Of a stretch of DNA of 48,175 nucleotides, positions 36,423-47,399 are shown one piece after another; position 1 is the first letter of the stretch; each line of letters starts with the position of its first letter. The notes under the pieces are model-generated. The model saw only the letters and a program-made list of their open reading frames with translations. It searched no databases and was not told the origin of the DNA. A program made the translations under genes and the position numbers. This DNA comes from a virus, in the IMG/VR virus record IMGVR_UViG_3300037133_000006, positions 1 to 48,175 of that record. One strand, written 5' to 3'.

Positions 36423-37145
36423 ATGGAAATCAAGAACATTTACGATGCAGTGATTTTTGTTTCAGCAGCACTCACCATCAAAGACACGCTGATCGAGGCC
36501 ATTAAAGCAAAAACCAACCTGAGCAGTGCCTACCTGCGCGGTGCCAACCTGAGCGGTGCCGACCTGCGCAGTGCCTACCTGAGCAGTGCCGACCTGCGCA
36601 GTGCCTACCTGAGCAGTGCCAACCTGAGCGGTGCCGACCTGAGCGGTGCCTACCTGAGCGGTGCCAACCTGAGCGGTGCCAACCTGAGCAGTGCCAACCT
36701 GAGGGGTGCCGACCTGAGCGGTGCCAACCTGAGCGGTGCCTACCTGAGCGGTGCCAACCTGCGCAGTGCCAACCTGAGCGGTGCCGAGGATATTCCGGCT
36801 ATGGCTATCGCACAAATGCAGTTCATCCCCACCGAAGGCGCATTCATCGGATGGAAGAAATGCAGAAATGGCTTAATTGTCAAGCTCGGCATCTCCGCAT
36901 CTGCCAAGCGCAACCATGGGTCAGAGCGCAAGTGCCGATGCTCAAAAGCTAAGTGCCTCGCCATCTTTGACCGTGACGGCAACGCAATTTCTGAGGCAAC
37001 CAGCGAATATGATGCCTCATTTGTCTACCGTGTTGGCAAAGTGGTAAAACCGGCCAATGGTTTTGACGATGATCGCTGGAATACATGCGGAGCCGGAATT
37101 CATTTCTTCCTGACGCGGCTTGAGGCTGAAGCGTACACGCTATAA
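36423..37145 (+). CDS. pentapeptide-repeat protein with DUF5758-like C-terminus
   Basis: 240 residues from ATG 36423 with AAGGAGG before it. Residues 32-121 are 18 tandem pentapeptides of the form A(D/N/Y)L(S/R)x, which fold as a right-handed four-sided beta-helix. The C-terminal 115 residues ([58 protein letters not shown]) match the DUF5758 domain found with such repeats in phages. Pentapeptide helices can mimic DNA (as Qnr/MfpA do with gyrase), so a DNA-enzyme inhibitor is possible but untested. Confidence 0.85.
36516..36785 (+). repeat. 15-base coding repeats of the pentapeptide region
   Basis: Eighteen 15-base units (type GGTGCCAACCTGAGC) with strong DNA identity. The reading on the opposite strand is also open (a Gly-Thr-Ala-Gln-Val repeat), which is a by-product of the repeat and not a gene. 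Confidence 0.85.
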
Positions 37146-38705: not shown

Positions 38706-39626
38706 ATGCCGCAAAATGGAGAACGCCTCTCTCGCGCCGAAGAAGGAACCGCAATCAAGCTCGAAGGCCGCAATCTTCCGCCGCGCTCAATCGTCATTCA
38801 GAAGGAATGGAACCCGCGCGTTATGTCCAGCGATTCGGTAAAGCAGTCCATCGAATCCCTGAAGCAGTCCATCCGCGCCAGAATCAACGCTGGACTTCCC
38901 GGCCTGTTCAAACCGATTCAGGTCCGCTATATCCGCTCTACCGCCCCATGGAGAGGCGCTACGGTCACAGGTGGCACGCCGCTACTCGTCGATGGTGAGC
39001 GGCGGCTCCTTGCCTATCTCCAGCTATGGGACGAGGGCACAGAGGCAAACATCCCCGTCACCGACACGGACGGAGATGAGGCTCAGCTACGCGCCGCTAG
39101 CATTATCGCCAACGATGGCCTTCCGCTTACCGCCCTGGAAATCGGCCGGCAATGCAAAATCCTCCGTGATGGCTGCTGCAAGTCGGTCGAGTGGATCGCC
39201 GAGAACATCGGAAAGTCCCAACGGTTCGTCACCGAGGCAATTGCGCTCCATGACGCGCCCGAGGAAGCCAAGGCGCTGGTTGCATCTGGAGAGGTCACTC
39301 CATCCGCAGTGCGCAGCGCGTGGAAGGCCGAAGTAAAGCAGGCACAGGAAGAGAACCGAGCGCCTGAGCCAGAACGCATCGTAGAACCCCTGAAACAGGC
39401 CGTAGCATCCCAACCGCAGCCCGCACAGGCCACCATCCCCGGCACCGTAAAGCCATCGAAGCAGAAGCCGGTAGCACGTCCCAAGGCAGAAAGCAAATGT
39501 GATCGAGAAATCAAAACAGTTCTGGCGCTTGCCGATGATCTCGCCGCGAAGGCCCTGGACGATGAATTGCCGATCAGTGATGTATGGAAGGCAGCAAAGG
39601 CGTATCAAAAAGCTCGGGGAATCTAG
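38706..39626 (+). CDS. ParB-like nuclease-domain protein
   Basis: 306 residues. The N-terminal ParB-like fold (IVIQKEWNPRVMSSDSV, LFKPIQVRYI, LLVDGERRLLAY with DGERR at 96-100) is followed by a helix-turn-helix (EWIAENIGKSQRFVTEAIAL) and a Lys/Pro/Gln linker. The family includes CTPase clamps for DNA partition and DNA nickases. No ParA lies next to it, so a regulator or a nuclease is as likely as a partition protein. Confidence 0.75.
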   Translation: MPQNGERLSRAEEGTAIKLEGRNLPPRSIVIQKEWNPRVMSSDSVKQSIESLKQSIRARINAGLPGLFKPIQVRYIRSTAPWRGATVTGGTPLLVDGERRLLAYLQLWDEGTEANIPVTDTDGDEAQLRAASIIANDGLPLTALEIGRQCKILRDGCCKSVEWIAENIGKSQRFVTEAIALHDAPEEAKALVASGEVTPSAVRSAWKAEVKQAQEENRAPEPERIVEPLKQAVASQPQPAQATIPGTVKPSKQKPVARPKAESKCDREIKTVLALADDLAAKALDDELPISDVWKAAKAYQKARGI

Positions 39627-39641
39627 GTGCGATCTTGCACC
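39626..39641 (+). promoter_or_regulatory. third copy of the GGTGC/GCACC dyad
   Basis: GGTGCGATCTTGCACC is related to the 16-base palindrome at 38200-38215 (5-bp arms, then a mismatch). It overlaps the end of the ParB-like gene and precedes the hexapeptide-repeat gene at 39665. Confidence 0.5.
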
Positions 39642-39664
39642 AAAACCGGAAAGGAAGAAAAACC

Positions 39665-40498
39665 ATGAAAGTACAGAAGACCGTAATTACTAGCGCAGAT
39701 GTGGATTCTGAAGGATATTACAAAGCCTCTATCGATCTCACAATCGAAGGAGATTTGACCGTCGATGATACTGTTGTAAATTTCAGAGTTATTGGCAATT
39801 TAATCGTGCGCGGAAACCAGTACGTGGGCGGCAACCAGTACGTGGGCGGCAACCAGTACGTGCGCGGCAACCAGTACGTGCGCGGCAACCAGTACGTGGG
39901 CGGCAACCAGGACGTGGGCGGCAACCAGTACGTGCGCGGCTACCAGTACGTGCGCGGCAACCAGGACGTGGGCGGCTACCAGGACGTGCGCGGCAACCAG
40001 GACGTGCGCGGAAACCAGTACGTGGGCGGCAACCAGTACGTGGGCGGCAACCAGTACGTGCGCGGCAACCAGTACGTGGGCGGCAACCAGGACGTGGGCG
40101 GCAACCAGTACGTGCGCGGCTACCAGTACGTGCGCGGCAACCAGGACGTGGGCGGCTACCAGGACGTGCGCGGCAACCAGGACGTGCGCGGCTACCAGGA
40201 CGTGCGCGGAAATCAGGACGTGTCGAAACATCACTTCTGTGTCACGCGCCACTTTACGGGAACCTACGACTATCACGTCATGGTAGCCATCACAAAAAAT
40301 GGAGAAAGGTTTGTTTACATGGGATGTCTGCATTATTCCCTTGAAAAATGGGAGAAGATCGGCATTCGGAAAAGCAACCTTTCAGAATTTCCAGAGGATG
40401 GATCACGGCGAAGTGAAGAGCGCGTTCTGGCTTTTGAATTTGCGAAGGCGGCAGCTCTCGCTCTCAAGGTGCCTACCAAAACTGATCCTCCAAAATAA
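39665..40498 (+). CDS. hexapeptide-repeat beta-helix protein
   Basis: 277 residues from ATG 39665, with AAAGGAAG upstream; an earlier ATG at 39584 would overlap the ParB-like gene. The N-terminus (VDSEGYYKASIDLTIEGDLTV) reads as strands. Residues 51-182 are 22 hexapeptides of type (N/Y)Q(Y/D)V(R/G)G, with Val at a fixed place, as in stacked beta-helix turns. The C-terminus is a separate domain (HHFCVTRHFTGTYDYHVMVAIT, ERVLAFEFAKAAALAL). Units 1-3 and 5-11 recur as 12-14 and 15-21, showing a recent duplication. Function unknown. Confidence 0.8.
   Translation: MKVQKTVITSADVDSEGYYKASIDLTIEGDLTVDDTVVNFRVIGNLIVRGNQYVGGNQYVGGNQYVRGNQYVRGNQYVGGNQDVGGNQYVRGYQYVRGNQDVGGYQDVRGNQDVRGNQYVGGNQYVGGNQYVRGNQYVGGNQDVGGNQYVRGYQYVRGNQDVGGYQDVRGNQDVRGYQDVRGNQDVSKHHFCVTRHFTGTYDYHVMVAITKNGERFVYMGCLHYSLEKWEKIGIRKSNLSEFPEDGSRRSEERVLAFEFAKAAALALKVPTKTDPPK
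39815..40210 (+). repeat. 22 tandem 18-base coding repeats with higher-order duplication
   Basis: Each unit (for example AACCAGTACGTGGGCGGC) encodes one hexapeptide. Two series of units are repeated in order, about 198 bases apart. Such DNA can change copy number by recombination or slipping. The opposite strand is open by chance across this region. Confidence 0.85.
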
Positions 40499-44921: not shown

Positions 44922-47399
44922 ATGATGAAGCGTTCACTTTTTGAAGAAGAACAATCCGAGAATGGTTTTTCTCTTTGGCCGCATCAGGTAAAAGGGAAAG
45001 AGGAACTGCGGGAAGCTGTGAAGCGTGGACACCGCCGCGTTGTGCTTCAGGTGGCCACAGGAGGCGGCAAGACCCGCCTCATGGCCGAGATCATACTAGA
45101 CGCACTGAAGAAGGGCAGCAATGTGGTATTCTGCGTTCCCCTGAAGGCTCTGGTAGACCAGACCGTGAAGGAATTCCAAGAGGCGGGGATCAAGGACATT
45201 GGCGTGATCCAAGCCCAGCATGCCATGACGGATTGGATGGCATCAGTACAAGTGGCAAGCATTCAGACACTCATCCGCCGGCCGATTCCTGAAGCCGACC
45301 TGATTATATGGGACGAGGCGCACGTCCGTTCCAAGGGACTCGAAAAGATCATTGCCAGCGACCAGTGGAAGGACAAGGTGGTAATCGGCCTGTCCGCTAC
45401 GCCGTGGGCAAAGGGAATGGGACAGAAATGGAATGAACTGGTGGTATGCGGAACCACGCGAGAGCTAATTGATTCTGGCGTGTTGTGCCCATATAAGATC
45501 ATGGTTCCACCCGATGAATTCAAGCCTAACCGCGCAGCCGTGAAAGTGAAGGACGGCGAGTTTGTAGACGAAGCGGCCATTGCAGAATTCAGCAAACCGG
45601 CCATCGTGGGCAACGTGGTAGACACTTGGCTGGAGCATGGCCCAGGTTACGAGACGTTCCTGTTCGGCCAGAATTGCGCTCATGCTAGATCGCTTCAAGC
45701 CGAGTTCAATGAGCGGGGAATCTCCTGCGGATACATCGACGGTGAGAGTGAAGAGCAGGACATTCTCGACATGTGGAAGAAGTACGATTCCCATGAATAC
45801 AAGGTAATTGCTTCCGTGGGTTGCCTGGTGGCCGGAGTGGACAAGCGAGTGCGCTGCATCATCCTCGCCATGATGACCAAGAGCCGCATGAAGTACATGC
45901 AGATCGTGGGCCGGTCCTTCCGCACGAACGGAGATCCTTCCAAGGTCGCGTGCATTGCGCGTGACTCCATGGTTCTTACCCAACATGGTCTAATACCAAT
46001 TCAAGATATAACACTTGACCACATGGTATGGGATGGTATAGAGTTTGTACATCACGGTGGTGCTGTATGCAAAGGTATAAAAGAGGTTATCGAGCATGAT
46101 GGCATTATCGGAACTCCTGACCATGAGGTAATGACAGATGACGGTTTCCAAACACTTGCTAACGCGAAATGTGGACACAAACGGATTGTTACGACCGGAA
46201 TTGGTGGGACACCAATATGGTTCATTGGAGATAATCTCACGGGAAACCAATGGACAAGGGGGATTCAACCTGCGGGTGAAGGTAAAGTGCCTACGTTGCG
46301 GTGGAATACACATGGCACGTTTTTACAACATCAAGAAGCGTCCGAATACAGCAGCTTGCCCGCACTGCAACGGAAGAAAACCAATTACTGTACCGAAATG
46401 GCTATACCGGAGATGTCAAGGTCAACAGGATCGGTGCTGCAATCCAAACAATTTGGAATATCGCAACTATGGGAAAAGAGGAATACGGTTTCTGTTTCCA
46501 AGCCCCAACGCTGCTGCTACGTGGATTGCGGAGAATCTTGGGATAAAAGATCGATCTTTTCAACTAGACAGGATCAACAACGAAGGGAATTACGAACCAG
46601 GGAATATTCGCTGGGTGACTTGCGCTTTGCAATGCAACAATACTCGGAAGTCAGACGGTACACGTCGAACAAGAACAATTCAATTCCGAGTGAATCATCC
46701 AGAAGTTCTCTACGCGGACATGACCCTATGTATTTTTATTGGCTGGGGTCTAACAGATCGTCAGATAGTCAACCGATGGAACAGACTCCCAGAATCAAGA
46801 AGGAAGTATGGGACATCGTCAATGCTGGGAATTTACAAAGGTTCACTGTCAATGGGAAATTAGTTCACAACTGCATTCTGGACCACGGAGGCAATACGCT
46901 TGCTCTCGGTGAGCCGGTAGACATTCAGTACGACCACCTGGACATGAGTAAGCCGGGAGACAAGGGAAGCGCGTTCAAGGAAGAGAAGGAACCGCCGAAG
47001 CCCCGCGAGTGCCCGCATTGCCACATGCTGCTACAACGCTCCGCTAAGCATTGCCCGTTCTGCGGCCAACTTATGCTCACTCTCAAGAACAACGAGGTTG
47101 TGCATGAGGACGGCGAACTGGTGAAGTACGGTTCCGGCAAGATAGCAAAGGAACCCCGCAAGGTACGAAGCGACGAGCAAGCATTCTATTCCGGGCTGTT
47201 GCAATTCTCCCAAGGCCATGGATTCAGTGACGGATGGGCAAAGCACAAGTACCACGAACGGTTCGGATCATGGCCGGATGGACTCGACAATGTTCCCATG
47301 ACGCCGCGCAATGTGGTGAAGGACTTCATCAAAGAGTCGATGCTTAAGTGGCGGAAGGAAAAGAAAGCAATGGAAGCACAGAAGGGACAGACAGCATGA
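44922..47399 (+). CDS. superfamily 2 DNA helicase with intein
   Basis: 825-residue precursor; 518 after removal of a 307-residue intein. Walker A ATGGGKT (45-51), DEAH box WDEAH (130-134), SAT motif (158-160) and motif VI QIVGRSFR (327-334) define an SF2 helicase as in phages such as T7-like and lambdoid groups. The intein begins at Cys344, ten residues after motif VI, and ends at Asn650 with Cys651 as +1 residue. Joined exteins read SKVA-CILDHGGN, the normal helicase sequence at this place. A zinc ribbon (CPHCHMLLQRSAKHCPFCG) follows. It would unwind DNA for replication or recombination. Confidence 0.85.
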   Translation: MMKRSLFEEEQSENGFSLWPHQVKGKEELREAVKRGHRRVVLQVATGGGKTRLMAEIILDALKKGSNVVFCVPLKALVDQTVKEFQEAGIKDIGVIQAQHAMTDWMASVQVASIQTLIRRPIPEADLIIWDEAHVRSKGLEKIIASDQWKDKVVIGLSATPWAKGMGQKWNELVVCGTTRELIDSGVLCPYKIMVPPDEFKPNRAAVKVKDGEFVDEAAIAEFSKPAIVGNVVDTWLEHGPGYETFLFGQNCAHARSLQAEFNERGISCGYIDGESEEQDILDMWKKYDSHEYKVIASVGCLVAGVDKRVRCIILAMMTKSRMKYMQIVGRSFRTNGDPSKVACIARDSMVLTQHGLIPIQDITLDHMVWDGIEFVHHGGAVCKGIKEVIEHDGIIGTPDHEVMTDDGFQTLANAKCGHKRIVTTGIGGTPIWFIGDNLTGNQWTRGIQPAGEGKVPTLRWNTHGTFLQHQEASEYSSLPALQRKKTNYCTEMAIPEMSRSTGSVLQSKQFGISQLWEKRNTVSVSKPQRCCYVDCGESWDKRSIFSTRQDQQRRELRTREYSLGDLRFAMQQYSEVRRYTSNKNNSIPSESSRSSLRGHDPMYFYWLGSNRSSDSQPMEQTPRIKKEVWDIVNAGNLQRFTVNGKLVHNCILDHGGNTLALGEPVDIQYDHLDMSKPGDKGSAFKEEKEPPKPRECPHCHMLLQRSAKHCPFCGQLMLTLKNNEVVHEDGELVKYGSGKIAKEPRKVRSDEQAFYSGLLQFSQGHGFSDGWAKHKYHERFGSWPDGLDNVPMTPRNVVKDFIKESMLKWRKEKKAMEAQKGQTA
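45951..46871 (+). mobile_element. intein in the helicase (Cys344-Asn650)
   Basis: Block A: CIARDSMVLTQHGLIPIQDI with the splice Cys. Block B: GTPDHEVMTDDG with Thr398 and His401 (T-x-x-H). Blocks F and G: EVWDIVNAGNLQRFTV and NGKLVHN, with the last His-Asn pair before Cys. All splice residues are present. Between B and F the 190 in-frame residues are rich in Ser, Arg, Gln and show no LAGLIDADG or HNH motif in this frame. The DNA is visibly A/T-richer than the helicase on both sides. Confidence 0.88.
46138..46863 (+). CDS. HNH homing endonuclease nested in the intein in another frame
   Basis: 241 residues from ATG 46138, with GAGGT (46125-46129) eight bases upstream; the frame is +1 relative to the helicase. 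It has a complete phage homing endonuclease pattern: LVGHQYGSLEIISRE, zinc pairs Cys51-x2-Cys54 and Cys74-x2-Cys77, RCCNPNN and YGKRGI (111-116), and LDRINNEGNYEPGNIRW (143-159), the HNH-type core. The C-terminus has a helix-turn-helix-like GWGLTDRQIVNRWNRL. It lies wholly between intein blocks B and G, stopping eight bases before the splice Asn codon ends. Confidence 0.85.
   Translation: MTVSKHLLTRNVDTNGLLRPELVGHQYGSLEIISRETNGQGGFNLRVKVKCLRCGGIHMARFYNIKKRPNTAACPHCNGRKPITVPKWLYRRCQGQQDRCCNPNNLEYRNYGKRGIRFLFPSPNAAATWIAENLGIKDRSFQLDRINNEGNYEPGNIRWVTCALQCNNTRKSDGTRRTRTIQFRVNHPEVLYADMTLCIFIGWGLTDRQIVNRWNRLPESRRKYGTSSMLGIYKGSLSMGN

Follow-up and report, generated by a model that had tools for sequence, protein, structure and literature searches.

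Sequence analysis of a phage helicase intein predicted to carry an HNH homing endonuclease gene in another reading frame

Introduction

Large inteins of the canonical kind (VMA-type inteins with a LAGLIDADG endonuclease, or inteins with an in-frame HNH endonuclease) have the endonuclease built into the intein polypeptide as a domain. Here we describe an insert in the helicase gene of a contractile-tailed phage (with tail sheath, portal and terminase genes), in IMG/VR record IMGVR_UViG_3300037133_000006, which we analysed over its whole length of 48,175 bases and refer to as the window. As in canonical large inteins, a splicing domain and a homing endonuclease would move here as one DNA unit, but the endonuclease of the window would be a separate protein, encoded in another frame of the intein DNA.

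Two other kinds of element come close to this arrangement. The split inteins of the "fractured genes" work of Dassa and colleagues (2009) are reportedly encoded in two halves with a free-standing endonuclease gene between them, so that the host gene is broken. In the window, too, the endonuclease would be a protein of its own, with its gene located between the two parts of an intein, but the host gene is not interrupted, since one stretch of DNA serves both frames. Group I introns with HNH genes, of the I-HmuI type, resemble the window in having a free endonuclease inside a self-removing element, but removal in the window is predicted to occur at the protein level, and no match to intron RNA was found there.

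Out-of-frame HNH genes have also been described in phage DNA methylase genes, as the ShiLan domain and Pacc40 gp60 insertions (Arsenault, Gosselin, Gogarten 2025, PMC11855218). These authors detected neither intein motifs nor a HINT fold nor an intron in the ShiLan insertion, and deduce that the filler is retained in the methylase; no Shine-Dalgarno sequence was found for the HNH gene, for which a leaderless GTG start was proposed, and activity of the HNH frame was inferred from its disjunct distribution (PMC11855218). The window shares with ShiLan an insert in a phage gene, an open host frame and an HNH gene hidden in another frame. It differs in that its filler forms the central part of a HINT intein and that Shine-Dalgarno sequences precede most HNH starts of its family; with a HINT splice domain predicted, the window insert would not qualify as a ShiLan-type insertion. 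Our literature search turned up no description of an intein whose endonuclease is encoded out of frame, although a preprint on actinobacteriophage inteins (bioRxiv 10.1101/2025.01.02.630785, "Non-Canonical Architecture"), which is cited for overlapping frames by PMC11855218, may describe such cases.

Two annotated phage polymerase genes, those of Salmonella phage vB_SenS-Ent1 and of Sodalis phage SO-1 (gp38/gp39), carry members of the same element family with the HNH gene in the +2 frame, and each record notes one half of the element. The Ent1 polymerase, of a Salmonella Jerseyvirus, is recorded as containing an intein, with the HNH gene in the +2 frame unannotated (L225:61-957), and inteins similar to it occur in about 150 Salmonella phage records. 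The SO-1 polymerase is annotated as containing a type I self-splicing intron, to which the HNH gene is attributed (L216:51-3239). The HNH gene of this phage intein family is largely unannotated.

Results

A helicase intein with an HNH gene in the +1 frame

The helicase frame is uninterrupted from 44922 to 47399 (825 codons), including a 307-codon insert at 45951-46871 that interrupts motif VI of a DEAD/DEAH helicase (Table 1). The N-extein matches Pfam ResIII (2.8e-21), Helicase_C (2.7e-7) and the DNA helicase family phrog_16 (7.1e-70). The insert begins with Cys1 (residue 344 of the frame), carries T55-P-D-H58 in block B (residues 398-401) and D288 in block F, and ends in VHN, with the terminal His-Asn followed by Cys+1. 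Across the intein family described below, these splice residues (C1, TxxH, the block F Asp, HN and C/S/T+1) are invariant or near-invariant, and C1, T55, H58, D288 and N307 are invariant in family alignment A5. The first-pass annotation had called an open helicase frame with all splice blocks at these positions, and translation confirmed the frame, the blocks, the coordinates and the motifs. Scans of the window proteins with Pfam and NCBIfam returned no intein or HNH call, and a 62-residue N block used as query against viral proteins found no match.

An empty site for comparison is provided by the helicase of Vibrio phage 1.233, which reads ...GRGLRTAPGKKR/CLIFDHSG where the window reads ...SKVA/C..HN/CILDHGG (slashes mark junctions). 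The helicase N-extein as query found distant helicases only, so this search gave no closely related allele without the intein for the window.

The 241-residue HNH protein carries CxxC...CxxC zinc pairs, GKRGI and a DRINNEGNYEPGNIRW core; among 45 relatives, three of the zinc cysteines are invariant and C77 is present in at least 90%. The protein matches PHROG HNH endonuclease families (phrog_374, 4e-21; phrog_3377, 2e-18), and reaches only E=0.4 against I-HmuI by profile. Shuffling of synonymous codons, with the HNH protein sequence and its codon counts unchanged, left the helicase frame open in none of 20,000 trials (mean of 13.6 stops expected), which rules out chance as the reason for the open frame. 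Elsewhere in the window there is a second, classical free-standing HNH gene (2422-2811), whose PHROG HNH families differ from those of the nested gene.

The frame relation recurs across a phage intein family

A tblastn search with the intein-frame protein found matches in phage DNA polymerases of Streptococcus, Gardnerella and Caulobacter, and a search with the HNH protein matched several of the same polymerase sites, in another frame. We then searched with the first 80 intein residues, which favour no HNH frame, and with a full intein alignment. Among about 120 distinct complete inteins, the HNH gene is in the +1 frame in 98, in the +2 frame in five and in frame in none; the rest are mini-inteins or decayed. 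With remnants included, 108 inteins distinct by DNA sequence, from phages and prophages, bear an HNH gene (about 103 in +1 and five in +2), so the complete HNH gene that the first-pass annotation placed in the +1 frame, with its own GAGGT and ATG after block B, is one of many such pairings. Over 22,331 HNH codons there are no stops in the HNH frame, none in the intein frame and 1,329 in the third forward frame, while codon shuffles predict 886 stops in the intein frame (P < 0.01 in 97 of the 108).

Family members are found in family A DNA polymerases (at different sites), in DEAD/SNF2-type helicases and in a ThyX-like gene; in the intein tree, the neighbourhood of the window consists mostly of helicase inteins. 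One sample of 385 genomes from the class of the Methylobacterium hit yielded only two matches, which indicates that the family is rare in that class and mainly phage-borne. The arrangement in the window is not a single oddity but a widespread family architecture that appears to have arisen at least twice.

Several members have features of their own. One DNA polymerase gene contains two family inteins, both of which hold an out-of-frame HNH gene of their own (L148:3001-3978 and L148:4519-5439), and another host polymerase is apparently fused to a uracil-DNA-glycosylase-like domain (L061:454-4551). Moraxella phage Mcat21 has a 131-residue HNH-less mini-intein of the family in an open reading frame annotated as hypothetical (L047:2453-2845), and the single ThyX match among the host genes is probably this Mcat21 protein.

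Substitutions in the overlap follow the HNH codons

We compared divergence by codon position in eleven independent pairs with 70-90% DNA identity. Outside the overlap, divergence at host positions 1/2/3 was 0.20/0.11/0.44, the ordinary pattern for the intein frame. In the overlap it was 0.42/0.20/0.15, which corresponds to HNH positions 3/1/2 (overlap vs outside, chi-square p=5e-73). The +2 clade is an independent control in which the phase is changed, and substitutions again track the HNH codons: Shigella phage EP23 compared to Salmonella phage LP31 gave 13/63/32 in the overlap, with HNH position 3 fastest, and 4/0/19 outside. These patterns indicate that the HNH protein is under purifying selection.

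Moreover, divergence at third positions is equally fast for HNH codons in the overlap (0.42) and for intein codons outside it (0.44), which argues that the overlapped intein peptide is little constrained beyond the avoidance of stops. This segment of the intein would thus be filler, constrained mainly to be stop-free. The expectation in the first-pass annotation that both frames would be constrained therefore holds for the HNH frame, but for the intein frame only weakly. In the window and its nearest relative, L056, identity over the same DNA is 0.56 for the HNH protein and 0.32 for the intein frame, and HNH codons differ at positions 1/2/3 by 85/72/130 changes.

Predicted structures place an ordered HINT fold around a disordered middle

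In an AlphaFold model of the intein (47 family members), the predicted local distance difference test score (pLDDT) is about 97 at residues 1-90 and 281-307 and mostly below 50 between them. In Foldseek the best matches of this model were all inteins (DnaB, DnaX, RecA and DnaE; probability 1.00), and the family profile matches solved mini-inteins and PI-MtuI (the latter at 5e-4). Thus, the ends of the window intein are predicted to form a HINT fold. The HNH protein is modelled as ordered (pLDDT 86.6), and its model matches viral HNH protein structures in BFVD at about 1e-10.

Start and stop signals lie in splice-motif codons

Shine-Dalgarno sequences of at least 5 nt precede 82 of the 108 HNH starts compared to 51 of 1,058 internal start codons (Fisher p=1e-66), a p-value that, like others for these sites, is nominal, given that the inteins are related to one another and that the best start was taken. 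The start lies at intein nucleotide 145 in 59 of the 108 inteins, and the Shine-Dalgarno sequence is written in conserved intein codons, either K-E-V or, as in the window, D-H-E-V. At the other end, 45 of 99 +1 members have the HNH stop within the Leu-Val codons of LVHN, 8 nt before the end of the intein, and Leu codons ending in TA, which create the TAG, are more frequent at LVHN (51 of 83) than elsewhere (107 of 547). The window shares both family signals: its stop (TAG, 46861-46863) is made up from the codons for Leu and Val of the KLVHN motif that closes the intein.

The window also has an 11-codon mini-ORF in the HNH frame. Its ATG (46096) is at the start position usual in the family, and its TAA and then a TGA stand directly upstream of the HNH ATG at 46138. 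Since the mini-ORF ends just before this ATG, re-initiation or coupling is possible.

Presence, absence and decay of the elements

Six Dhillonviruses have the intein in DNA polymerase, and it is absent from many relatives whose shared gene is 92-94% identical in DNA sequence, a distribution that shows mobility. For the three carriers listed, intein DNA is 98.8-99.1% identical to that of EP23, compared to 93.6-95.3% for whole genes, and phage PTXU06 has a clean empty polymerase site (GKA/CELGLGYGG). Presence of the intein is likewise polymorphic among Streptococcus phages. Distances between HNH proteins correlate with those between splice blocks (Mantel r 0.69; 0 of 999 permutations), and in the HNH tree as well as in the intein tree the five +2 members form a single clade, which suggests that HNH gene and intein travel together and that the combination arose at least twice.

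A single TGG-to-TGA change in a Streptococcus phage (L043:2501-3427) truncates the HNH protein (W196*) and leaves the intein frame open. This is a natural uncoupling of HNH loss from the intein frame. Remnants of the HNH gene are found in four other loci (L046, L104, L105 and L120) and none in mini-inteins.

Other features of the window

On the plus strand, 39584-40498 encodes about two dozen near-identical 6-residue repeats (GNQYVG/GNQDVR...), with PHROG matches of unknown function only; the strand opposite these repeats is open for 177 codons (39800-40333, minus strand) with an AHVLVA repeat. A pentapeptide-repeat-like protein at 36423-37145 likewise matches only PHROGs of unknown function.

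Table 1. Coordinates of the helicase, intein and HNH features in the window
Feature	Position	Strand	Evidence or remark
N-extein, DEAD/DEAH (ResIII-type) phage helicase	44922..45950	+	motif VI GRSFRTNGDPSKVA at its end
Intein, 307 residues	45951..46871	+	class-1-type motifs C1, TPDH, D288, HN, C+1
Upstream Shine-Dalgarno GAGGT	46083..46087	+	in KEV codons; homologous to the Shine-Dalgarno of most family members
Mini-ORF MMALSELLTMR*, HNH frame	46096..46131	+	11 codons, TAA end
Intein block B GTPDHEVMTDDG	46107..46142	+	GAGGT of the HNH gene written in its Glu-Val codons
Shine-Dalgarno GAGGT	46125..46129	+	8 nt before ATG 46138
HNH endonuclease gene, 241 residues	46138..46863	+	+1 frame relative to helicase/intein; PHROG, BFVD, AlphaFold
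Intein-frame low-complexity linker, intein residues 97-270	46239..46760	+	predicted disordered; pLDDT mostly <50
Zinc pairs C51-C54 ... C74-C77 of HNH protein	46288..46368	+	
HNH core RC...NYGKRGI...LDRINNEGNYEPGNIRW...N	46432..46641	+	invariant/near-invariant columns
Intein blocks F and G VWDIVNAGNLQRFTVNGKLVHN	46806..46871	+	overlapped by the HNH 3' end
C-extein of helicase, CILDHGGN...	46872..47399	+	Cys+1 first

Discussion

We consider it likely (probability roughly 0.85) that the window contains a mobile intein whose DNA also holds, in a different frame, the gene of its homing endonuclease. Translation of the helicase mRNA along a single frame would produce a precursor, from which the HINT fold (intein residues 1-90 and 281-307) would excise itself and join the parts of a 518-residue helicase. 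The middle of the intein, read in the helicase frame, would be disordered filler, while the internal Shine-Dalgarno sequence and ATG by block B may direct translation of a free HNH endonuclease, with its C-terminus encoded within block G. This enzyme would cleave motif VI in helicase genes that lack the intein, and repair would copy the whole intein into them. Since intein and endonuclease would fold separately, loss or decay of the endonuclease should be harmless to splicing. The first-pass annotation had proposed such a splicing intein with a separately translated HNH protein, the shared DNA being read as a linker. More than 100 relatives, the substitutions by codon position, the enrichment of Shine-Dalgarno sequences, the structure predictions and the presence/absence polymorphism all favour this proposal; compensating indels, or a loss of HNH-frame conservation, either of which would speak against it, were sought in the relatives and not found.

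Several points weigh against this reading. Splicing, translation of the HNH gene and cutting are things that we infer, and the window has no close relative, such that selection on its own copy is deduced from L056 and L055, with about 50-56% HNH identity. Pfam gave no confident HNH domain for the nested protein, and a Foldseek search of its model against the PDB found no significant solved structure. Shine-Dalgarno sites are weak in some members, notably the +2 group, and where they lie in conserved intein codons the match is partly forced by coding. The Glu codon at the site is GAG in 38 of 47 cases, compared to 604 of 1,877 elsewhere, but mini-inteins show GAG at the same codon (6 of 8), and thus the preference is only suggestive of selection on the Shine-Dalgarno codons in favour of the HNH gene.

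We considered that the window might hold a splicing intein with a decaying HNH relic, the element being no longer mobile in this phage. Such states are known in the family, as the W196* truncation, the four loci with remnants and the HNH-less mini-inteins attest. The window gene, however, is full length, with every conserved cysteine and core residue in place and a fold predicted to be ordered, and its changes relative to L056 are concentrated at HNH third positions, which makes a relic unlikely.

Phages use frameshifting, and the two frames overlap, such that a programmed +1 frameshift of ribosomes translating the intein could yield an N-intein-HNH fusion instead of a free protein. A shift upstream of the TAA and TGA that precede ATG 46138 in the HNH frame would, however, terminate; these two stops right before the HNH start make frameshifting unlikely in the window, and, since most HNH starts also have an optimally spaced Shine-Dalgarno sequence and another kind of shift would be required in the +2 clade, we regard it as highly unlikely overall.

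That the insert is instead a group I intron with an HNH gene, spliced as RNA, is what the annotation of SO-1, with gp39 inside the polymerase, would suggest, and phage group I introns commonly bear HNH genes. We find this extremely unlikely: no Rfam family matched the window or five relatives, the host frame is stop-free in every HNH-bearing member, and the splice-block residues are conserved around a fold predicted as HINT.

Because the endonuclease is usually in frame in large inteins, an error of sequencing or assembly, or a pair of compensating indels, might be thought to have shifted an in-frame HNH domain, but the chance of this is negligible and such an origin is refuted at the level of the family by sequence comparison, as the same relation holds at 98 complete +1 loci (first tally), many from isolate genomes in public records, and in a separate +2 clade, with no in-frame members and with HNH start and stop signals sitting within splice blocks. 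We give practically no weight to the idea that the in-frame linker is the selected domain and the open HNH frame a by-product, which has nothing beyond the open frame in its favour, while divergence in the overlap tracks HNH and not intein codons in both +1 and +2, and the linker is predicted to be disordered and is absent from mini-inteins.

Beyond the window, these elements probably form a large phage-wide class of inteins in which an out-of-frame nested homing endonuclease is standard, with start and stop signals in splice-motif codons, and which arose at least twice (+1 and +2); splicing and mobility would be separable on the same DNA, with stops in the host frame prevented. The arrangement would be a third way to couple a splicing element with a homing endonuclease, beside in-frame fusion and the intron-borne gene. 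It is common in phages, including the well-studied Salmonella Jersey-type phages and Escherichia coli Dhillonvirus, where it has been annotated by one half only. It also offers a long and well-replicated same-strand gene overlap in two independent phases, in which selection appears to act on the protein of one frame and, in the other, mainly against stops. Moreover, the family may serve as a natural test of the usual fusion of endonuclease and splicing domain, since here each would be mutable alone, as in the Streptococcus phage with the W196* change.

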